A stretch of DNA of 64,000 nt from Methylohalomonas lacus (GTDB lineage Bacteria > Pseudomonadota > Gammaproteobacteria > Methylohalomonadales > Methylohalomonadaceae): the NCBI RefSeq assembly GCF_024808875.1, contig NZ_JANUCT010000005.1:62001-126000 (forward strand). Direction: 5' to 3'. Made by a program: the position numbers and the translations under genes. Positions 7,324 through 27,428 of the stretch are shown here, piece by piece (within the stretch, counting starts at the first letter, position 1; every line of letters starts with the position of its first letter). The notes beneath the pieces were generated by a model. It saw only the letters and a program-made list of their open reading frames with translations. It ran no database searches and had not been told where the DNA came from.

Positions 7324-8442
7324 ATGCTGGAAATGATACGCCAGATGTTGAATGCCACCGTCGGTCAGATCGTGCCTGCCGCCTGGCAGGCGCAGACGGT
7401 CGAGGTAATGCTGATCGTGATGCAGATCACGATCATTCTGACGCCGCTGATGCTGTGCGTGGCCTATATGGTCTATGCCGAGCGCAAGGTGATCGGTTCC
7501 ATCCAGGGCCGCATCGGTCCGAACCGGGTTGGCGCCTTCGGCTACCGTCTCGCCGGTCTCGGCCAGCCGATCGCCGACGCGCTGAAACTGATTCTGAAAG
7601 AGATCATCATCCCGACGGGTTCGAACAAGTTCCTGTTCGTGATCGCGCCGATCCTGTCGATGGCCCCGGCGGTCGCTGCCTGGGCGGTGATACCGTTCGC
7701 TGCCGATACCGTGCTGGCTGACATTAATGCCGGCCTGCTGTATGTGCTGGCGCTGACCTCGCTGGCGGTCTACGGTGTGATCATCGCCGGCTGGGCGTCG
7801 AATTCGAAGTATGCCTTCCTCGGCGCCATGCGCTCGGCAGCGCAGATCGTCGCCTACGAGATCGCCATGGGCTTTGCGCTGGTCGGTGTCGTGGTTGCTG
7901 CCGGCAGCCTCAATCTGGGCCAGATCATCAACGCCCAGTCCGGCAGCCTGCTGCACTGGTACTGGCTGCCGCTGCTGCCGTTTTTCGTGGTCTACTTCAT
8001 TTCCGGTGTCGCCGAAACCAACCGCGCACCGTTCGACGTCGCCGAAGGTGAGTCGGAAATTGTTGCCGGTTTCCACGTCGAATATTCCGGCATGGCGTTC
8101 TCGCTGTTTTTCCTGGCCGAATACGCGAATATCATTCTGATTTCGGTGCTGAGCGCCGTACTGTTTCTCGGTGGCTGGCTGTCGCCGTTCGAAGGCGTGC
8201 TGCCGAAGTCGGCATTTACGCTGCCGGTGATCGGCAGCGTGCTGGGCGGCGGCATTCACTGGCTGCTCCTGAAAACGTCGCTGTTCATTTTCGTGTTCCT
8301 GTGGCTGCGGGCAACGTTCCCGCGCTATCGCTACGATCAGATCATGCGGCTGGGCTGGAAGGTGTTCATCCCGATCACGCTGGTCTGGCTGGTGGTTATC
8401 GCGACGCTGGCCAAGCTGCAGATCACACCGTGGTTTAACTGA
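7324..8442 (+). CDS. nuoH: NADH-quinone oxidoreductase subunit H
   Basis: Membrane subunit that closes the quinone tunnel and links it to the proton pumps. The 372 residues form about eight transmembrane helices and carry the conserved acidic loop [16 protein letters not shown] near the middle as well as the early motif [19 protein letters not shown]. Length and motifs are normal. It lies six bases after nuoG and eleven before nuoI, consistent with one transcript. Confidence 0.97.
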
Positions 8443-8453
8443 CAGAAAGATTT

Positions 8454-8945
8454 ATGTTTGCGAACGTCCATCGTATCGGCAAAAGCCTGCTGTTACTTGA
8501 ATTGCTCAAGGGTCTGCGTCTGACCGGCCGCAACCTGTTCAAGCGCAAGGTGACGGTACAGTACCCGGAAGAGAAGACGCCGCAGTCGCCGCGTTTTCGC
8601 GGGCTGCATGCGCTGCGTCGCTATCCGAACGGCGAGGAACGCTGTATCGCCTGCAAGCTCTGCGAGGCGGTCTGCCCGGCGGTGGCGATCACCATCGAGT
8701 CGGAACAGCGCGACGACGGTACGCGGCGGACGACGCAGTACGATATCGACCTGACCAAGTGCATTTTCTGCGGTTTCTGCGAGGAATCCTGCCCGGTCGA
8801 TTCGATCGTCGAGACGCGGATCTACGAATATCACGGCGAAGAGCGCGGCGATTTGCTCATGACCAAGGAACGGCTGCTGAAGATCGGTGACCTGGCCGAG
8901 CCGCAGATCGCCGCCGACCGCGCGGCGGATGCGGCTTACAGGTAG
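8454..8945 (+). CDS. nuoI: NADH-quinone oxidoreductase subunit I
   Basis: Ferredoxin-like subunit that passes electrons through clusters N6a and N6b to NuoB. The 163 residues contain two CxxCxxCxxxCP motifs: C64, C67, C70, C74 ([12 protein letters not shown]) and C103, C106, C109, C113 ([12 protein letters not shown]). The first 30 residues are an amphipathic helix that would dock on the membrane. The gene is followed by an unusual 145-base gap before nuoJ. Confidence 0.97.
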
Positions 8946-9017
8946 CTAAAAGCTGATGGCCTGAAGCCGATAGCCGGCGGCCATCACGGGAATAATCGGG
9001 GACAGGAAAAATAATAA

Positions 9018-9098
9018 ATGTCGGATAGAGCCATAAAAACGGAACTGTGTTTTGCTGGTGGTGATCCGCTACAGGCCGCGGGTTTAGCCAGTGTTTGA
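9018..9098 (+). CDS. possible 26-residue leader peptide in the nuoI-nuoJ gap
   Basis: An ATG at 9018, preceded by ACAGGAAAAATAATAA, opens a 26-codon frame that ends eight bases inside nuoJ, so termination could couple to the GTG start of nuoJ at 9091. The peptide contains LCFAGGDPLQAAGLASV, which resembles the N-terminal substrate-site motif of ThiD-type hydroxymethylpyrimidine kinases (LCFSGxDPxGGAGLxA). It may be a gene remnant, a coupling leader, or chance. I cannot decide from sequence alone. Confidence 0.25.
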   Translation: MSDRAIKTELCFAGGDPLQAAGLASV

Positions 9099-9696
9099 AC
9101 AGATCATCTTTTACAGTTTCGGAACGATGCTGCTGTTGTCGGCGCTGATGGTGATCAGTGTGCGCAACCCGGTGTATGCGGCACTGTTTCTGGTGCTGGC
9201 GTTCTTTTCCACGTCAGCCATCTGGCTGCTGCTGCGCGCCGAGTTTCTCGCCATCGTGCTGGTGCTCGTCTATGTCGGCGCAGTCATGGTGCTGTTCCTC
9301 TTTGTAGTCATGATGCTGGACATCAACCTGGCGCGACTGCGCGCCGGTTTCATGCGTTACCTGCCGGCAGGCGCGCTGGTGGCACTGGTGCTGGCGGCGT
9401 CGATGGTGCTGGTGGTCGGCGGCGAGGGCTTCAATGAGATCCGCGAAAGCGGCCTGGCTGAACGCGGGCCGGCTTACAGCAACACTGCCGAGCTCGGCGA
9501 GGCGCTGTTTACCGCCTACCTGTACCCGTTGGAGATCGCCGGTGCGATCCTGCTGGTGGCGATCATCGCGGCGATTGCGCTGACCCAGCGCGCCAAGCGT
9601 GAAACCAAGGCACAGAATCCCGACGCCCAGGTGGCGGTACGCCGTCAGGACCGGGTGCGGCTGGTCAAGATGTCCAGCGAACGCGACAGCGAATGA
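9091..9696 (+). CDS. nuoJ: NADH-quinone oxidoreductase subunit J
   Basis: Membrane subunit lying between NuoH and the antiporter-like subunits; helix 3 rearranges during the coupling cycle. The 201 residues have five hydrophobic helices, including the conserved LVLVYVGAVMVLFLFVVMML stretch. The start is GTG at 9091, the only start matching the family N-terminus (MFEQIIFYSFG). The hydrophilic, basic C-terminal tail (about 169-201) is somewhat long. It is separated from nuoI by 145 bases that may encode a short leader. Confidence 0.95.
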   Translation: MFEQIIFYSFGTMLLLSALMVISVRNPVYAALFLVLAFFSTSAIWLLLRAEFLAIVLVLVYVGAVMVLFLFVVMMLDINLARLRAGFMRYLPAGALVALVLAASMVLVVGGEGFNEIRESGLAERGPAYSNTAELGEALFTAYLYPLEIAGAILLVAIIAAIALTQRAKRETKAQNPDAQVAVRRQDRVRLVKMSSERDSE

Positions 9697-9734
9697 CAAT
9701 CCAGAAACGATAACCGGAAACGAAAGCGACTGCC

Positions 9735-10040
9735 GTGCTGACATTGTCCCATTTTCTGATTCTCGCCGCGGTGCTGTTCTGTATCAGCATCGCCGGGATA
9801 TTCATTAACCGCAAGAACGTGCTGTTGTTGCTGATGTGCATCGAGCTGATGCTGCTGGCGGTGAATATAAACTTCGTCGCGTTCTCGCATTTCCTCGGTG
9901 ATATACACGGCCAGGTGTTCGTGTTCTTCATCCTGACGGTGGCCGCAGCCGAATCGGCGATTGGGCTGGCCATCCTGGTGGTACTGTTCCGCAATCGCGA
10001 CACGATCAATGTCGAAGACCTCGACTCGATGAAGGGCTAG
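9735..10040 (+). CDS. nuoK: NADH-quinone oxidoreductase subunit K
   Basis: Small membrane subunit of the proton-translocating arm, homologous to MrpC. The 101 residues form three transmembrane helices with two buried glutamates: [10 protein letters not shown] in helix 2 and [11 protein letters not shown] in helix 3, both needed for coupling in studied homologues. The start is GTG 9735. The stop is four bases before the nuoL ATG. Confidence 0.96.
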
Positions 10041-10044
10041 GGCG

Positions 10045-12051
10045 ATGGCGGATTACCTTACAACCCTGTGCCTGATTGTGGTACTGGCGCCGTTGACCGG
10101 TTCGATGCTGGCCGGTCTGTTCGGTTCGGCGCTGGGGCGTGCCGGTGCGCACTGGGTCACAATCATTGGCGTCGCCATTGCCACGCTGGCGTCGGCGCTG
10201 GTGTTCAAGGCCCAGGTGTTCGACGGTGCCGCGGTGCTGAACGTTAACCTGTACGAATGGGCGGCACTGGGCGGCATCAGTTTCAACATCGGTTTCCTGG
10301 TCGACAGCCTGACCGCGACCATGATGCTGGTGGTGACGTTCGTTTCCTGGATGATTCACGTCTACACCATCGGCTACATGCACGACGATCCGGGCTACCA
10401 GCGTTTCTTCAGTTATATTTCGCTGTTCACCTTCGCCATGCTCATGCTGATCATGGCCAACAATTTCCTCCAGCTGTTCTTTGGCTGGGAAGCCGTGGGC
10501 CTGGTGTCGTACCTGCTGATCGGTTTCTGGTTCAAGCGCGAGTCGGCCATATTCGCCAACATGAAAGCGTTCCTGGTCAATCGCGTCGGTGATTTCGGCT
10601 TCCTGATCGGTATCGCCGCGATACTGTTCTATACCGGCAGCCTCAACTATACGACGGTTTTTGCTGTTGTACCGTCACTGACCGGTACTACCATCAATGT
10701 GTTTGGTAATGCCGACTGGTCGGTGCTGAGTTTCATCTGTATCGCGCTGTTCATTGGTGCAATGGGCAAGTCCGCGCAGGTGCCGCTGCACGTCTGGTTG
10801 CCGGACTCGATGGAAGGCCCGACGCCGATTTCGGCATTGATTCATGCCGCGACCATGGTTACCGCCGGCATCTTCATGGTGGCGCGCATGTCGCCGCTGT
10901 TCGAGCTGAGTGAAGCGGCGCTCACTTTCATCCTGGTCATCGGTGCGACCACGGCGCTGTTCATGGGCCTGTTGGGCGTGGTTCAGCACGACATCAAGCG
11001 GGTTATCGCCTACTCGACGCTGTCGCAGCTCGGTTACATGACCGTCGCGCTCGGCGCCTCGGCGTACTCGGCGGCTATTTTCCACCTGGTCACGCATGCC
11101 TTCTTCAAGGCGTTGCTGTTCCTCGGTGCCGGTTCGGTGATTATTGCCCTGCATCACGAACAGGACATGCGCCGCATGGGCCGGCTCAGCCGCTTCATGC
11201 CGTTCACCTGGCTGACCATGCTGGCCGGTACGCTGGCGCTGGTCGGTTTCCCCGGTACTTCCGGATTCTTCTCCAAGGACGCGATCATCGAGGCCGTGCA
11301 TCTGTCGGAGCTGCCGGGTGCCGGTTATGCCTATTTCTGTGTGCTCGCCGGGGTGTTCATCACCTCGCTGTACAGCTTCCGTCTGCTGTTTCTGGTCTTC
11401 CACGGCCGTGACAATGTCGACTCGCATGCCAAGGGTCACCTGTTCGAGTCGCCGCCAGTGGTCGTGCTGCCGCTGTTGATCCTGGCCGTGCCGTCGCTGC
11501 TGCTGGGTCTGGTCGCCATCGGTCCGCTGCTGTTCGGCGGCTACTTCGCCGATGCCATCCACGTCGCCCCGGCGCATGACGTGCTCGCCCGGCTCGGTGA
11601 GGATTATCACGGCGTGCTCGGTTTCATGCTGCACGGTCTGATGACACCGCCGCTGTGGCTGGCGGTCGCCGGTTTCATCGTCGCCTGGTACTGCTACCAG
11701 TTGCGGCCGGAACTGCCGGGCCGCATTGCCGCGGCCAGCGGCGGGCTTTACCGCCTGCTGCTGAACAAGTACGGCTTCGACGATTTCAACCAGGCGGTTT
11801 TCGCCCGCGGTGCGCGTGGCCTGGGCGGTCTGCTGTGGCGGATCGGCGACGTGCGCCTGATCGACGGCCTGATCGTCAACGGTTCCGCCAACAGCGTGCG
11901 CCGCTTTTCCGGCCTGATCCGTCACGCGCAGTCCGGCTTCCTGTATCACTACGCCTTTGCCATGATCGTTGGCCTGGTGCTGTTACTGGCGCTGTTCGTC
12001 CAGGACTGGCCGGCGCTGCTGGCACAGTACGGCCTCATGCAACCACGCTAG
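10045..12051 (+). CDS. nuoL: NADH-quinone oxidoreductase subunit L
   Basis: Distal antiporter-like proton pump of complex I. The 668 residues contain the Proton_antipo_N and Proton_antipo_M domains and a long C-terminal part expected to form the lateral helix that runs along the membrane arm. Channel residues are present: glutamate in FGWEAVGLVSYLL, lysine in MGKSAQVPLHVWLPD, and lysine/aspartate in GFFSKDAII. The motif DIKRVIAYSTLSQLGYM is the family hallmark. Confidence 0.97.
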   Translation: MADYLTTLCLIVVLAPLTGSMLAGLFGSALGRAGAHWVTIIGVAIATLASALVFKAQVFDGAAVLNVNLYEWAALGGISFNIGFLVDSLTATMMLVVTFVSWMIHVYTIGYMHDDPGYQRFFSYISLFTFAMLMLIMANNFLQLFFGWEAVGLVSYLLIGFWFKRESAIFANMKAFLVNRVGDFGFLIGIAAILFYTGSLNYTTVFAVVPSLTGTTINVFGNADWSVLSFICIALFIGAMGKSAQVPLHVWLPDSMEGPTPISALIHAATMVTAGIFMVARMSPLFELSEAALTFILVIGATTALFMGLLGVVQHDIKRVIAYSTLSQLGYMTVALGASAYSAAIFHLVTHAFFKALLFLGAGSVIIALHHEQDMRRMGRLSRFMPFTWLTMLAGTLALVGFPGTSGFFSKDAIIEAVHLSELPGAGYAYFCVLAGVFITSLYSFRLLFLVFHGRDNVDSHAKGHLFESPPVVVLPLLILAVPSLLLGLVAIGPLLFGGYFADAIHVAPAHDVLARLGEDYHGVLGFMLHGLMTPPLWLAVAGFIVAWYCYQLRPELPGRIAAASGGLYRLLLNKYGFDDFNQAVFARGARGLGGLLWRIGDVRLIDGLIVNGSANSVRRFSGLIRHAQSGFLYHYAFAMIVGLVLLLALFVQDWPALLAQYGLMQPR

Positions 12052-19679: not shown

Positions 19680-21980
19680 ATGCTGCTCGCCGTCCTGTCC
19701 GGCTTTATTCTTGCTGCCTGCGCGCCCTGGCTGACCCGGCTGTTAGGCGATCGGGCCGGTTGGGTGCTGGCGCTGTTGCCGGCGGCATTGTTCGTCTACT
19801 TTCTCAGCTGGATTCCGCTCACCGCCGGTGGTGCGGCCGAGGTGGTTCACTACAGCTGGATCCCCGGGCTCGATATCAACCTGTCGTTTCTCGTCGATGG
19901 CCTGAGCCTGCTGTTCGCGCTGCTGATCAGCGGCATCGGTACCTTTATCATCATCTATTCCGGCGGTTACCTGCACGGCCACGAATACCTGCCGCGTTTC
20001 TACGGCATCATGTTCGCGTTCATGGCGGCGATGCTGGGTGTGGTGCTGTCGAATAACATCATCAGCCTGTTCGTGTTCTGGGAGCTGACCAGCATCACGT
20101 CCTACCTGCTGATCGGCTTTAATCATGAGGACAAGCAGGCGCGCTGGTGCGCCCTGCAGGGTCTGTTCGTGACCGTCGCCGGCGGTCTGGCGCTGCTCGC
20201 CGGCCTGATCATGCTGGCCGGTGCCGGCGGCAGTTTCGAATTGTCGGAATTGCTCAACAGTGGCGACGTGCTGCGCGACTACCCGCTGTATACCGGCATG
20301 CTGATCCTCATTCTGTTCGGCACGTTCACCAAGTCGGCGCAGGTGCCGTTCCACTTCTGGCTGCCCAACGCCATGGCCGCACCAACGCCGGTGTCGGCCT
20401 ACCTGCACTCGGCGACCATGGTCAAGGCTGGCATCTACCTCATGGCGCGTCTGAATCCCGGCCTCGGCGGTACCGACCAGTGGCTGTACACGCTGGGCCT
20501 GTTTGGTGCCGTGACCATGTTTACCGGCTCGTTCATGGCGCTGCGCAGCACCGATGTGAAGGCGATGCTCGCCTACAGCACGATCATGGCGCTGGGCACG
20601 CTGACCATGCTGATCGGCATCGGTACCGAGGCGGCGATTATTGCGGCGCTGGCGTTTCTGCTCGCGCACGCGCTCTACAAGGCGGCGCTGTTCATGCTCG
20701 CCGGTGGTCTCGATCACGAAACCGGCACCAAAAACATCCTCAATATGGGCGGGTTGCGCCGGCTGATGCCGGTCAGTTTCATTACCGCCTGTGTCGCCGC
20801 GCTGTCGCTGGCCGGTCTGCCGCCGCTGTTCGGTTTCATCGCCAAGGAACTGATGTTCGAGGCGACTCTGCACGCGCCGGCCATCGCCACTGTCACCACG
20901 GTACTGGCCGTGATCTCGGCGATCATGATCATGGCGGTGGCCGCGCTATTCGCACTGCGGCCGTACACCGGTAAGTTGAAGGAAACACCGAAACAGCCGC
21001 ACGAGGCGCCGCCGTCGATGCTCGCCGGTCCGGTGGTGCTGGCCGCGCTCAGCCTGGTGTTCGGCGTCGCCGGTTTTCTGCCGGTGCAGGGTATTCTCCA
21101 CAGTGCCGTCGCCGCCGTGCACGGCAGCCCGCTGGAGTTCAAGCTTTACCTCTGGCATGGCGTCAACACGCCGCTGCTGCTCAGCCTGCTGGCCGTGGTA
21201 ACCGGTCTACTGGTGTTTGCCGGCTGGGATCGTGTCCTCGCCGTGTACCGGCGCCTGACTTTCATCGATCGCTTTGGCCCGGAACGCGGTTACGAGCGGG
21301 TCATGGCGGCGCTGGTCTGGGTCGCCGAGTGGCAGACGCGCGTGCTGCAGAACGGCTACATGCGCAATTATCTCATTACTATCCTGCTGACTGCAGTAGC
21401 ACTGGCCGGCGGTACGTTCTTTATCTATACCGGCAACACGGTGCCGTTCGGCACGGTCGATATTACTTTCTACGAGGCGGTGATCGCCGCGCTGATCATC
21501 GCCGGTGCAATCGTCGTGTCGCTGATGCAGTCACGCCTCGGCGCGGTGGCCACGGTGGGCATGGTCGGCTTCGGTGTGGCGCTCATCTACGTGCTGTTCA
21601 GCGCGCCGGATTTGGCGATCACCCAGATCATGGTGGAGACGTTGACCGTCATCCTGTTGGTGCTGGTGCTGTACCGTCTGCCGCGTTTCCTCAACCTGTC
21701 GAGTACCGCGGCGCGCATTCGCGATGCGCTGGTTGCGTTGCTGTTCGGCGGTATGATGACGGTGCTGATCCTGGCGGTGCTCGATGTCGAGGTTGTCGCG
21801 CCGATCTCGGATCAGCTGGTGGCCTGGAGCTACGACGAGGGCCACGGCCGCAACATCGTCAACGTCATACTGGTCGACTTTCGCGCCCTCGATACGCTGG
21901 GCGAGATTTTCGTTGTCGGCCTGGCGGCGATCGGCGTCTACGCCATGATCCGGCTGCGGGCGGAGGATAAAAGGTCATGA
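19680..21980 (+). CDS. mrpA: Mrp-type Na+/H+ antiporter subunit A
   Basis: Largest subunit of the multi-subunit Mrp antiporter, which exchanges Na+ for H+ across the inner membrane and is homologous to NuoL. The 766 residues begin with a NuoL-like antiporter domain that keeps the glutamate in [15 protein letters not shown] and the lysine in [14 protein letters not shown]. They continue into a C-terminal MbhD/DUF4040-like segment (about 595-680, with [15 protein letters not shown]) and a short MbhE-like end. The start ATG 19680 has a weak GGGGTGA upstream. First gene of a seven-gene set; its stop overlaps mrpB. Confidence 0.93.
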
Positions 21981-22402
21981 TGGGCTCGTTGATCCTGCGC
22001 ACCGCGGCGCGCTTTCTGCTGCCGCTGCTGCTGCTGTTTTCGCTGTTCATGCTGCTGCGTGGCCATGACGAACCGGGGGGTGGCTTTATTGCCGGCCTGA
22101 TTGCCGCGGTGGCGTTCGCACTGTATTTGTTCGCCTTCGATGCCGCGCGTACGCGCCAGTTACTGGGCGTTGATCCGCGGCTGTTGCTGGGACTCGGGCT
22201 GCTGGCCGCGACCGTCAGCGGTCTGCCATCGATACTGCTGGGAGAGGCATTCTTTACCGCCATATGGTGGCCCATCGACGTTCCCGGCTTCGGCGAAGTG
22301 AAACTGTCGACACCGTTGCTGTTCGACATCGGCGTCTACCTGCTGGTGCTTGGCGCCATCATGACCATTGTCCTGGCCCTGGACGAGGCAGAGGAGGAAT
22401 GA
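21977..22402 (+). CDS. mrpB: Mrp-type Na+/H+ antiporter subunit B
   Basis: Small membrane subunit of the Mrp complex with an MnhB domain. The 141 residues contain about four helices and the family motif [17 protein letters not shown], where the charged residues form part of the proposed ion path. It overlaps the end of mrpA by four bases (ATGA) and runs into mrpC, as expected for a stoichiometric complex. Confidence 0.93.
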
Positions 22403-22403
22403 A

Positions 22404-22751
22404 TTGGAACCGGTAATGGCCATTGTCGTCGGCGCACTGTTCGCCACGTCCATATACATGATGCTGCGGCGTTCGATCGTCAAGCTGGTGATCGGCCTGA
22501 TACTGCTGAGTAACGCCGCCAATCTGTTGATCTTTACCGTTGGCGGCATGAAGCGCGGTCTGCCGCCGCTGATCGATGAAGGCATGAAAATGCCGACCGG
22601 CGGTTGGGCCGATCCGCTGCCCCAGGCGCTGATCCTGACCGCGATCGTGATCAGCTTCGGCGTGCTCGCGTTTGCGGTGGTGCTGATTCACCGTGCCTAC
22701 GAGGTGGTGCAGGAAGACGATCTGGACAAGATGCGGAGCACCGATACGTGA
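22404..22751 (+). CDS. mrpC: Mrp-type Na+/H+ antiporter subunit C
   Basis: NuoK-like subunit of the Mrp complex: three transmembrane helices in 115 residues. The start is taken as TTG 22404, six bases after a strong GAGGAGG and directly after the mrpB stop; ATG 22416 is the alternative and would drop four residues. The segment [20 protein letters not shown] and the helix-3 region [16 protein letters not shown] match the family. The stop overlaps the GTG start of mrpD (GTGA). Confidence 0.92.
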
Positions 22752-24262
22752 ATCCCGACGTCGCCCTGCCTGTTCTGATTCCGTTCATCGCCGGTGCTTT
22801 GTCGCTGGTGTTTTACCGATCGCTCAGCGTCCAGCGCTGGATCGGCATATTGGGCACCGGTGCATTGCTGGTTGCCAGTATCTACCTGCTGTATATGACC
22901 TATACCCAGGGGATTCGGGTGATGGCCATGGGTGAGTGGGCGGCGCCATTCGGCATCGTCCTGGTCGCCGATTTGCTCGGTGCGATCATGACCGTGCTGG
23001 CGGCGATCCTCGGTTTTGCCGTCGCCGTCTATTCGCTGGCGACGATCAGCCGCGACAATATCGCCTACGGTCATTTCCCGCTGATTCACCTGCTGCTGGC
23101 CGGTGTCTGCGGTGCCTTTCTGACCGGCGACATCTTCAACCTGTATGTCTGGGTCGAGGTATTGCTGGTGTCGTCGTTTGCCTTGCTGATCCTCGGCGGC
23201 GAGCGTGCGCAGATGGAAGGCGCAATCAAGTATGTCACGCTCAACCTGTTGTCCTCGATTCTGCTGCTGGTGGCGGTAGGCCTGACTTATGGCATGACCG
23301 GGACGCTGAACATGGCCGACCTGGTCGGCAAGCTGGCGGCGGTGGAAAACCAGGGACTGGTGACGGTTATCGCGATGCTGTTTCTGGTGTCGTTCGGCAT
23401 TAAGTCGGCGGCGTTTCCATTGTTTTTCTGGTTACCGGCGTCCTATCACACGCCGCCGGTGGCGGTGTCGGCATTGTTTGCCGGCCTGCTGACCAAGGTC
23501 GGCGTCTACGCGCTATTCCGCTTTTTCACTTTGCTGTTCGACCACGATGTCGGCTACACCCACGAGATTCTGTTGTGGATGGCCGGCTTCACGATGATCA
23601 CCGGCGTCCTCGGCGCCGCCGCCCAGTACGAAATCCGGCGTATACTGTCATTCCATATCGTCAGCCAGATCGGCTACATGATCATGGGGCTGGCATTGTT
23701 TACGCCTCTGGCGCTTATCGGCGGGGTGTTCTATATCATGCACCACATCATCGTGAAGGCGAACCTGTTCCTGGTCGGTGGCGTGGTGTATTTCCTGCGC
23801 GGCAGCTACGACCTCAAACAGATCGGCGGATTGTGGCGCGAGAAACCGTGGTTGGGCCTGTTGTTCCTGGTGCCAGCGCTGTCACTGGCCGGGGTACCGC
23901 CGTTGTCCGGTTTCTTCGGCAAATTCATTATTATACGCGCTGGTATCGAGCAGCAGAGCTGGGGTATTGTCGCGGTGGCACTGGTGGTCGGCCTGCTGAC
24001 GCTGTATTCGATGATCAAGATATGGGCCGAGGCTTTCTGGAAGGCGCAGCCCGAGGCGCATGCCGAGCGCGCGGCACAGTTTACCGCGGCACTGCCCACG
24101 CGCTCGCTGGTATTGATGCTGATGCCGATCAGCGCACTGGCACTGCTGACCCTGTTTATCGGTATCGGCGCCCAGCCGGTCTATGAGCTGGCGAGCGCTG
24201 CCGCCGAGCAGATGCAGAACCCGCAGATCTATGTTCAGGCGGTGCTGGGAGACAGCCAATGA
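22748..24262 (+). CDS. mrpD: Mrp-type Na+/H+ antiporter subunit D
   Basis: NuoM/NuoN-like subunit that forms the second antiporter channel of the Mrp complex. The 504 residues keep the channel charges: glutamate in [14 protein letters not shown], lysine in [18 protein letters not shown], lysine in [12 protein letters not shown], and lysine in [12 protein letters not shown]. The start is GTG 22748, overlapping the mrpC stop; upstream in-frame codons lie inside mrpC. It overlaps mrpE through ATGA. Confidence 0.94.
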
Positions 24263-24732
24263 GGCTCTTTATCTGGAACATCATGCTGGCGCTGGCCTGG
24301 GTGTCGCTGACCGGCAATTTCTCCGGCAGTGGCATGCTCACCGGTTTTGCTTTCGGTTACCTGATGCTGGCTTTTGTCACCCGCATGAGCGGCGAGACGC
24401 GCAGCTATACCCGCAAGATACCGCAGGTGGTCGGTTTTACCCTGTTTTATATCTGGGAAATCATTCGCTCGAATGTGCGCGTTGCCTACGAGGTGTTGAC
24501 GCCGACGCATTACATGAAGCCGGGCGTGATTGGCTTGCCGCTGGACAGCGACAGCGATGCCGTTATTTCATTGTTAGCCAACCTGATCACCATGACGCCC
24601 GGGACGCTGAGTCTGGACGTTTCCAATGATCGGCGCATGCTGTTCATACATGCCATGTATATTGATGACGAAGAGGCGCTGCGCCGCGATCTGAAAGACC
24701 TGGAACGGCGCGTGATCGAGCTGCTGAGTTGA
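24259..24732 (+). CDS. mrpE: Mrp-type Na+/H+ antiporter subunit E
   Basis: MNHE-domain subunit of the Mrp complex, 157 residues, with two or three N-terminal helices and a cytoplasmic C-terminal domain. The region ITMTPGTLSLDVSNDRRMLF followed by HAMY is the family hallmark. Start overlaps the mrpD stop (ATGA). It is needed for activity in studied systems, though its exact role is not known. Confidence 0.92.
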   Translation: MRLFIWNIMLALAWVSLTGNFSGSGMLTGFAFGYLMLAFVTRMSGETRSYTRKIPQVVGFTLFYIWEIIRSNVRVAYEVLTPTHYMKPGVIGLPLDSDSDAVISLLANLITMTPGTLSLDVSNDRRMLFIHAMYIDDEEALRRDLKDLERRVIELLS

Positions 24733-24737
24733 GGTGA

Positions 24738-25013
24738 ATGAAAATGGAATGGGTTGTTACGCTTACCTTTATCATGCTGGCGCTGTCACTGCTGCTGGCT
24801 TTTGTCCGGCTGGTGCTGGGCCCGAGTCTGCCGGATCGGGTCGTCGCGCTGGAACTTCTCGCGCTCATCACCGTGGCGTTCAGTGTTGTCTACGCGGTCC
24901 ATGTCGATGTGGCCCATTTTCTTGACGTTGCCCTCGTACTGGCATTGACCGGGTTCATGGCGGCGGTGGGTTTTTCGCGTTTCCTGGAACGGGGCGGCAC
25001 CCGCGATGAGTGA
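24738..25013 (+). CDS. mrpF: Mrp-type Na+/H+ antiporter subunit F
   Basis: MrpF/PhaF subunit: 91 residues with three transmembrane helices. The signature RLVLGPSLPDRVVALELL and an aspartate in the third helix region (AHFLDVALVLALTGF) fit the family, where this aspartate is implicated in ion binding. Five bases separate it from mrpE, and it overlaps mrpG by eight bases. Confidence 0.92.
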   Translation: MKMEWVVTLTFIMLALSLLLAFVRLVLGPSLPDRVVALELLALITVAFSVVYAVHVDVAHFLDVALVLALTGFMAAVGFSRFLERGGTRDE

Positions 25014-25380
25014 ACTCGTGGTATCAATACTGTTACTGCTTGGCGCGGCACTGATTCTGATCGCCGCGATCGGTGTCGTGCGCATGCCGGACCTGATGCT
25101 GCGCATGCATGCCACCAGCAAGGCCGGTGCGCTGGGCGGGGGCTTGCTGGCGGTGGCCGGCGGTCTGCATTTTGCTGATACCGATGTCATGGTCCGGGCG
25201 ATTGCCATCGTTGTCTTTGTCGTCATGACCGCGCCGATCGCCGCACATGCCATCGCCCGGGCCGGGTATTTCGTCGGTGTGCCGTTCTGGGATCGAACCC
25301 TCAAGGATGAACTGCGCGAGCGGCTGGATACGCGCGATCATATGCTGCGCAGCGGCCTAGAGGACAAGCCGCGCGAGTGA
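25006..25380 (+). CDS. mrpG: Mrp-type Na+/H+ antiporter subunit G
   Basis: MnhG/PhaG subunit: 124 residues, three helices. The motif GVVRMPDLMLRMHATSKAGALGG is split here as RMPDLMLRMHATSK in the first loop and is diagnostic of the family. It is the last of the canonical seven subunits. The next gene starts 127 bases downstream with its own strong ribosome-binding site, so the extra genes may be in the same transcript but are less tightly coupled. Confidence 0.92.
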   Translation: MSELVVSILLLLGAALILIAAIGVVRMPDLMLRMHATSKAGALGGGLLAVAGGLHFADTDVMVRAIAIVVFVVMTAPIAAHAIARAGYFVGVPFWDRTLKDELRERLDTRDHMLRSGLEDKPRE

Positions 25381-25507: not shown

Positions 25508-25750
25508 ATGAATTCACCGGCCTTATTGCAGCAGCTGCGGCCGCACCTGCCGTGGCTGGCCGCTGCGGTCGCCGCACTTGTTGTCCTGCTGGCGGAGCTC
25601 GTCCTGGCGGACAAGCCCGCACCGGCGCTCGCCGGTGGTTTTGCCAGTCACGCGCTCATCGCTATCGTCGCCGTCCTTGCACCGCTGTTGCTGGCACGCA
25701 CTATCGGACGGCTGTTGCCCGCTGAGCCAGCGGAACGCGATGTCGATTGA
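25508..25750 (+). CDS. small two-helix membrane protein beside the Mrp operon
   Basis: An 80-residue protein I do not recognise, with two predicted transmembrane helices (about 15-33 and 43-64) and a short acidic tail. A strong GAGGAGGT lies upstream of ATG 25508. Its stop overlaps the ATG of the following antiporter-like gene by eleven bases, so the two are almost surely co-translated and may form one unit. Codon use resembles the neighbours. The function is unknown; an accessory subunit of an antiporter-like complex is a guess. Confidence 0.7.
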   Translation: MNSPALLQQLRPHLPWLAAAVAALVVLLAELVLADKPAPALAGGFASHALIAIVAVLAPLLLARTIGRLLPAEPAERDVD

Positions 25751-27428
25751 TTCCCTGTTAAACAATTTGCCGCCGGGACTCTGGTTACTCGGCGGCGCCC
25801 TGTTGTTGCCGCTGGCACGCGGCTGGGCGCGTACGGCCCTGGCCGTGCTGGTGTCCTTGTGGACGCTGTACGCGATCACACAGCTGCCGACGGGCCTCGG
25901 GCCGGGCTGGCAATGGTACGGTTATCAGTTCACGCCGTTGCTGGCCGATCAACTGGCCCGCCTGCTGGCACTGGCATTGGCCCTCACCATTGCCGCGGCG
26001 ATGCTGTTCTGTGCCGCGCGAACGCCGGACCGCGTCCTGCTGCCGGCCCTGTGGGCCGGTGGTGCCGCGCTCGGCGTGATCCTGGCCGGCGACTTCGTCA
26101 GCCTGTTTCTGGCCTGGCAAATCCTGATCCTGGCGACGGCGCTGGTGATCGTTGCCGCTGGCGCCGCCAGCCTGCGCTACCTGTGGTTGCAGTGCCTGGC
26201 CAGTCTGCTGCTGCTCGCGGCGATTATGGTGCATGTGCATGCCGGCCACGGTCTCAACCTGAATGGCCTGACACCCGGTAGCCCGGCCGGCCTGCTGCTG
26301 CTCGCGGCGATGCTGATCAATGTCGCGGGCTGGCCATTATCGAGCTGGCTGACTGATGCGCAAGACAGTCCGGAGGTCGGCCTGATCCTGCTGCCAGTGC
26401 TGCTGATCTACAGCGCACTGTATGTCTTGCTGCGCCTGTTTCCCGGCCACGAGGCATTGCCGGTCATCGGTTTTATCCTGACCGGTTATGCGCTCGTCAA
26501 TGCGGTGCTCGAAAACGATCTCCGTCGCCTGCTGCTGGATGCGATGGTGGCCCAGGCGGGACTGACCCTGGTTGCCCTCGGCCTGGGCAGCGAGTTGTCC
26601 CTGAACGCCGCGGTGGCCTGGAGCGTTGCGCAAATCCTCTATTTCGGCCTGCTGTGGCTGACCGCGGCGGCGGTGATCCGGCAAACCGGGCAGTATCGGC
26701 TGACCCGGCTCGGCGGCCTGTTTGCGAGCATGCCGCTGACCGCCGCCGTTGCCAGCATCGGCGCCCTGGCGGTACTGGCGGTCCCGCTGACCAGTGGTTA
26801 TGTCACGACTATCATGCTACCGACTGCGGCGCTGGATCTCGGTCGTGACGGCGTCTGGTTCCTGCTCGTCGCCGCCAGCGCCGCGGCGGTGCTGCATGCC
26901 GGTTTGCGCTATCCCTGGCTGGTTTTCTTCCGCCGCGCCGCCGCGGCGCCGGCTGCGGTTAGCGAAGTGGCCCTGCCGGCACGCCTGGCCATGCTGGGAC
27001 TCGCCTTTCTGACGCTCATCATCGGTATGGCGCCGTGCGCGCTGTACCGATTGCTGCCCTATGGCGCCACCTGCGCACCCTACACCGCGGCGCAGCTGTT
27101 GCCCTGGCTGCAGTTGCTGGTCTTCGCCGTACTCACCTTCGCCCTGTGTGCGCACCTGCACGCTGCCCGGCCACGCACGCCGGTCAGCGGTGACTGGCTG
27201 TGTCGCCGCGGGCTGGCGCTGCTCGGGCCGCTGGCTGCAGCGACGGCCCGTACGCTGGTCCGCGGCGTGCAGCGCAGCGGCTTCTGGTTGCTGGCCCGGT
27301 GCCGGGCGCTGGCGGGCGCCGCCGGCTACCGAACGGCGGAACTGAACAGCCGCGCCGTGCTGGCGCTGACCGCCTGGCTGCTATTATGGCTGCTGGCGGT
27401 GGTCGGCCTCGGTGTGTTGGCCCGCTGA
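25740..27428 (+). CDS. NuoM/MrpD-like membrane protein lacking the channel charges
   Basis: A 562-residue polytopic protein of the complex I/Mrp antiporter superfamily. Alignment by eye with NuoM of this genome is easy: AVKIPMWPVHTWLPDA corresponds to LINVAGWPLSSWLTDA, and YVFWE to FLAWQ. The four residues that carry protons in NuoL/M/N and MrpA/D are replaced: helix-5 Glu by Gln, helix-7 Lys by Asn, helix-8 Lys by Tyr, helix-12 Glu/Lys by Thr. The frame is intact and the start ATG 25740 overlaps the upstream small gene. It probably does not pump by itself; a structural or regulatory role is inferred. Confidence 0.8.
   Translation: MSIDSLLNNLPPGLWLLGGALLLPLARGWARTALAVLVSLWTLYAITQLPTGLGPGWQWYGYQFTPLLADQLARLLALALALTIAAAMLFCAARTPDRVLLPALWAGGAALGVILAGDFVSLFLAWQILILATALVIVAAGAASLRYLWLQCLASLLLLAAIMVHVHAGHGLNLNGLTPGSPAGLLLLAAMLINVAGWPLSSWLTDAQDSPEVGLILLPVLLIYSALYVLLRLFPGHEALPVIGFILTGYALVNAVLENDLRRLLLDAMVAQAGLTLVALGLGSELSLNAAVAWSVAQILYFGLLWLTAAAVIRQTGQYRLTRLGGLFASMPLTAAVASIGALAVLAVPLTSGYVTTIMLPTAALDLGRDGVWFLLVAASAAAVLHAGLRYPWLVFFRRAAAAPAAVSEVALPARLAMLGLAFLTLIIGMAPCALYRLLPYGATCAPYTAAQLLPWLQLLVFAVLTFALCAHLHAARPRTPVSGDWLCRRGLALLGPLAAATARTLVRGVQRSGFWLLARCRALAGAAGYRTAELNSRAVLALTAWLLLWLLAVVGLGVLAR

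Follow-up and report, generated by a model that had tools for sequence, protein, structure and literature searches.

A third antiporter-like subunit without its ion-pathway charges, located behind a canonical mrp operon in Methylohalomonas lacus

The window, meaning the whole stretch of 64,000 nucleotides that was analysed, carries nuoL-M-N, a canonical mrpABCDEFG operon (19680-25380), a small gene designated here X80, and finally a further antiporter-like gene, D3. The complete mrpA-G set had been recognised in an earlier note made from the sequence alone, and is indeed present. That note also described an intact 562-codon antiporter paralogue sitting directly after mrpG. The paralogue is confirmed: the frame is open from its ATG start over 562 amino acids, and the product matches Proton_antipo_M (PF00361) with an E value of 1.5e-17 and a score of 64.2 bits, against a Pfam gathering cut-off of 21.5. 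Its placing was nearly right, except that X80 intervenes. The features are listed in Table 1.

Table 1 Genes and pathway positions at the mrp-X80-D3 locus, in coordinates of the window
Feature	Coordinates	Strand	Basis
mrpA, charges intact	19680..21980	+	
mrpB	21977..22402	+	
mrpC	22416..22751	+	
mrpD, charges intact	22748..24262	+	
mrpE, sole genome copy	24259..24732	+	
mrpF	24738..25013	+	
mrpG	25006..25380	+	
X80, 80-residue two-helix partner, C-terminal K/R..YYD motif lost	25508..25750	+	position, phmmer, profile
D3, third antiporter-like subunit, charge-stripped (562 residues)	25740..27428	+	Proton_antipo_M; nearest NF009310/PRK12668
D3 codon 127, TM5 Glu to Gln	26118..26120	+	homologues: E in 167/167
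D3 codon 194, TM7 Lys to Asn, common to clade	26319..26321	+	homologue alignments
D3 codon 224, TM8 Lys to Tyr	26409..26411	+	homologues: K in 167/167
D3 codons 294-302, TM11 His/His/Lys to Trp/Gln/Phe	26619..26645	+	homologue alignments
D3 codon 357, TM12 Lys to Thr	26808..26810	+	homologues: K in 167/167
D3 lateral helix and last TM helix, residues 485-561, D485-W486...R489 kept	27192..27422	+	AlphaFold model, conserved columns

The best curated family for D3 is NF009310/PRK12668, which is widespread in Proteobacteria under the name "Na(+)/H(+) antiporter subunit D" and represents the D3 of Group-3 Mrp operons. D3 scores 330.8 bits against it, below the equivalog cut-off of 564. Homologues with 30-41% identity turned up in 66 of the 369 genomes sampled from its class and in 104 of 385 from another class of the phylum (a few of these being weak), and more than 560 candidate stretches were located in named species, mostly Proteobacteria. 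Neither the class and phylum samples nor the 80 best named loci contain a relative above 41% identity; a contig search with peptides derived from the open reading frame found no close homologue, and a search of the order found none either. In the tree, D3 is placed with a support of 0.975 inside a clade of homologues that have asparagine in TM7, one member of which (L074) scores 700 bits on NF009310. Another homologue (L082, G227, 8385-10076) is split by an in-frame stop and gives a piece of 397 residues, a possible case of decay or of assembly error.

In the neighbourhoods examined, the homologues stand at the end of operons with the order mrpE-F-G-A'-B-C-D1-D2-[small gene]-D3, one example being confirmed by Pfam. 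This agrees with the published definition of Group 3, which is without mrpA and sometimes has several mrpD (Group 3: PMC8415708). It may be that D2 and A' together correspond to MrpA; if so, even the Group-3 operons would have D3 as an add-on, a third antiporter-like subunit. Wherever a homologue locus has enough upstream sequence the gene before D3 is D2, except at L167, which has no recognisable upstream hit, and mrpG directly precedes D3 at none of the homologue loci. The M. lacus gene has canonical mrpABCDEFG upstream in place of the Group-3 series lacking mrpA. D1 and D2 are absent from the genome, its six PF00361 proteins being NuoL, NuoM, NuoN, MrpA, MrpD and D3, and there is one mrpE.

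In nearly all homologue operons a two-helix gene of about 80 residues, ending in K/R-x-D/E-x-YY-D, overlaps the start of D3, in most cases by 8-11 nt; it was recognised in the gaps between D2 and D3 of L027-L082. The overlap of X80 with D3 is 11 nt, and the locus thus shares this feature, which was found here and lies outside the curated definition of NF009310. The similarity of X80 to its counterparts is weak (phmmer 2.9e-5 to the L067 copy), and by the family profile it is the best among the 518 open reading frames of the window (E 0.013). In the alignment its tail now reads LLPAEPAERDVD, and the conserved K/R..YYD motif is lost. X80 has no significant family in Pfam or PHROGs, and its homologues are likewise without a Pfam family. 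X80 and D3 are divergent descendants of a widespread Group-3 add-on pair, normally charged and ending the operon. Two things are new here: the ion path has been lost completely, and the pair is attached to a canonical Group-1 mrpABCDEFG. The earlier suggestion that this may be a new type of Mrp-associated complex goes too far, since the pair is a variant of a known Group-3 add-on module.

The acidic residue of TM5 (E5) and the lysines of TM8 (K8) and TM12 (K12), which together serve to recognise a proton-translocating antiporter-like subunit, are invariant in the homologues (167/167, drawn in three samples that possibly share a few species), while D3 has Q127, Y224 and T357; these losses are therefore unique to the M. 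lacus protein. The retention of K8 is partly selected for in the 80 named loci, which were found with the peptide FLSAFTTK that contains it, the genome samples of class and phylum being free of this bias. In TM11, where the family has His, His/Asp and Lys, D3 has W294, Q298 and F302. The position in TM7 is different in kind. N194 replaces a lysine, and asparagine is found here in 26/58, 80/80 and 21/29 homologues of the three samples, so that it is an inherited trait of the whole clade and no new loss. The clade is large and extends across Proteobacteria (L038-L050, L107-L186). Its asparagine stands in the motif FLINAGA and its TM5 glutamate is kept, a natural rewiring of the Lys/Glu pair.

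An alignment with 58 homologues upholds the replacement of the helix-5 Glu by Gln and of the helix-8 Lys by Tyr, as had been proposed by eye. For helix 7 the proposed asparagine is correct, its status as a new loss is not. For helix 12 the threonine is correct, and the family residue that it replaces is lysine, glutamate being a feature of NuoM. The count of four replaced charges holds as far as it goes, and missed those of TM11 (H294 to W, H298 to Q, K302 to F). The framework residues said to be kept are present (W203-L-T-D206-A, P349 and G353). D3 is devoid of lysine, whereas none of the 80 named homologues has fewer than five lysines. The charges that D3 has acquired in comparison with its family are in loops or close to helix ends of the predicted model. 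D267, the one that reaches deepest into a core helix, is six residues into TM10. Being peripheral, the gained charges do not restore the axis. With the titratable residues of both half-channels and of the central axis all replaced, D3 should not carry protons in the normal way.

TM11 is relaxed in some homologues too (L068, L098, L120, L134, L137, L164 and L173), with the rest of the path intact, and to judge from these few it seems to be the first part of the pathway to go. A remoter relative (L103, G686; 28% identity) has M/G/I in TM11 and keeps E5, K8 and K12.

An AlphaFold model of D3, built with 46 homologues, gives the full 16-helix fold with a mean pLDDT of 86.9 and a pTM of 0.86. In the 14-helix core TM7 and TM12 are broken; residues 485-512 form a lateral helix and residues 532-561 the last helix. 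Searched with Foldseek, the model gives as its top matches the A and D subunits of Mrp, together with MBS chain X and subunits of complex I.

Conservation was assessed over the 96 columns that are at least 95% conserved in 138 homologues. D3 keeps 60 of these (62%), and every other homologue at least 89%. None of the five pathway columns is kept, against 60 of the 91 others, giving a hypergeometric P of 0.006 that rests on few residues. Eight of the eleven other conserved charged residues remain (D118, R146, D206, E258, D260, R262, R263 and R489), and a ninth, K390, is now arginine. The tip branch of D3 is 2.07 against a median of 0.31, about 6.6-fold longer. GC1 and GC2 are above those of its own mrpA and mrpD by 0.106 and 0.090, a shift toward the GC bias of the genome that lies 4.4 and 3.9 standard deviations beyond 27 homologue operons; this composition indicates that constraint has relaxed under GC pressure. 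GC3 (0.82) and codon usage are within the range of the neighbours.

The interpretation that we favour, with a probability of about 0.58, is that D3 is a proton-dead but structurally retained third subunit of the canonical Mrp complex, evolving under relaxed constraint. It would descend from the third antiporter-like subunit (NF009310/PRK12668) of a Group-3 Mrp antiporter, of which D1 and D2, and presumably the rest of the operon, have gone from the genome, leaving the X80-D3 pair behind the fully charged mrpABCDEFG. The protein is predicted still to fold, with its 16 helices, broken TM7 and TM12, lateral helix and final clamp helix, and proton carriage by the normal route would have been lost. 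As the operon context suggests, D3 would dock on Mrp in a structural or assembly role and presumably still be useful there, with ion exchange performed by MrpA and MrpD. In support of this proposal, the MrpD mutants E137A and K219A assemble the complex and lose antiport (PMC5703873), which indicates that a charge-stripped D3 could still assemble; together with the description of LysTMH7, LysTMH8 and LysTMH12 as key residues (PMC7419157), this favours a subunit that is dead for protons and kept for its structure. Among the roles offered earlier (structural, regulatory or differently coupled), a structural or accessory one is the best reading. A more specific version, tentative and somewhat short of even odds, is that this is a canonical seven-subunit Mrp with maintained eighth and ninth subunits (D3 and X80), D3 being null for all pathway charges and kept for architecture or regulation.

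The main competitor, which we consider unlikely though it is the strongest of the alternatives, is simple decay: X80-D3 would be a functionless remnant of the lost Group-3 core, a pre-pseudogene before its first stop or frameshift. Decay and simplification are equally compatible with the long tip branch, the GC1/GC2 drift and the missing X80 tail, and the loss of 31 of the 91 other conserved residues and the separation of D3 from D1 and D2 also point this way. Against it, about two substitutions per site have accumulated and yet 562 codons remain without stop or frameshift, where a random sequence of the same composition would stay open with a probability of about 3e-5 (indels ignored). The GC pattern by codon position (0.71/0.51/0.82) and the 11-nt overlap with X80 are likewise kept, as are most conserved residues outside the pathway, including the ENDLRR loop and the C-terminal DW..R motif.

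Changed transport is improbable. Here the polar uncharged path (Q127, N194, Y224, Q298, T357) would conduct something other than protons, or would gate Mrp. Five of the seven replacements are polar and the fold is predicted by AlphaFold to be intact, and DabB2 offers a precedent of a repurposed PF00361 subunit, although one with its proton residues kept (PMC13144422). However, the other two replacements (W294 and F302) are large and hydrophobic, the composition of D3 follows the GC drift, and a conserved new motif cannot be demonstrated from a single sequence. That the gene is an artefact of sequencing or assembly, or that the contig is chimeric, is very improbable: the variant is seen in one genome and nowhere else, but the changes are substitutions rather than frameshifts, the codon usage fits the host, and the contig measures 190 kb in a genome that is 99% complete with 0.5% contamination. 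Least credible of all is the reading that D3 is an ordinary, active antiporter subunit and that its charges have only moved in the alignment. Nothing was found in its favour; it is refuted by a protein that lacks lysine and has gained no charge in the middle of a TM helix, and contradicted by homologue motifs that align without gaps at the pathway sites.

Whether all antiporter-like subunits of Mrp and complex I have to carry protons has been debated chiefly on the basis of engineered mutants. A subunit found in nature that lacks the pathway residues and still has its fold and docking elements would put this question to an evolutionary experiment. The gene described here offers a natural way to ask whether a subunit of this kind can be retained purely for its structure. 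A literature search for natural charge-less Mrp subunits found none. The survey also exposes an unnamed and widespread third subunit of Group-3 Mrp, and a natural TM7 Lys-to-Asn clade in which a Lys/Glu pair described as essential has been rewired across many Proteobacteria.

Compared with known systems, D3 resembles the members of NF009310/PRK12668 in clade, length, the small overlapping upstream gene and the C-terminal DW..R motif. It differs in that typical members keep E5, K8, K12 and the TM11 H/H/K, and in that their normal site is behind D2, whereas D3 stands behind mrpG of a canonical operon. The MrpD and MrpA subunits of canonical Mrp (7qru, 6z16) have the same fold (Foldseek E 1e-14 to 1e-17) and the same framework; those of the M. 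lacus operon are separate genes and, unlike D3, keep all their charges. By profile, the best solved relative of the D3 family is chain X of the MBS complex (6u8y; E 2.3e-53), which we identify as MbsH'. MbsH' is an extra antiporter-like subunit with a lateral helix and a 16th TM helix, in which it resembles D3; it differs in carrying the charges E128, K217, K248 and K399, and has been described as a pump (PMC7684303). In HycC of formate hydrogenlyase the TM7 lysine is Leu208, the TM5 glutamate is kept and there is an alternative proton route (PMC9474812). HycC is therefore a natural PF00361-type subunit whose path is partly altered, whereas in D3 the whole path has gone.
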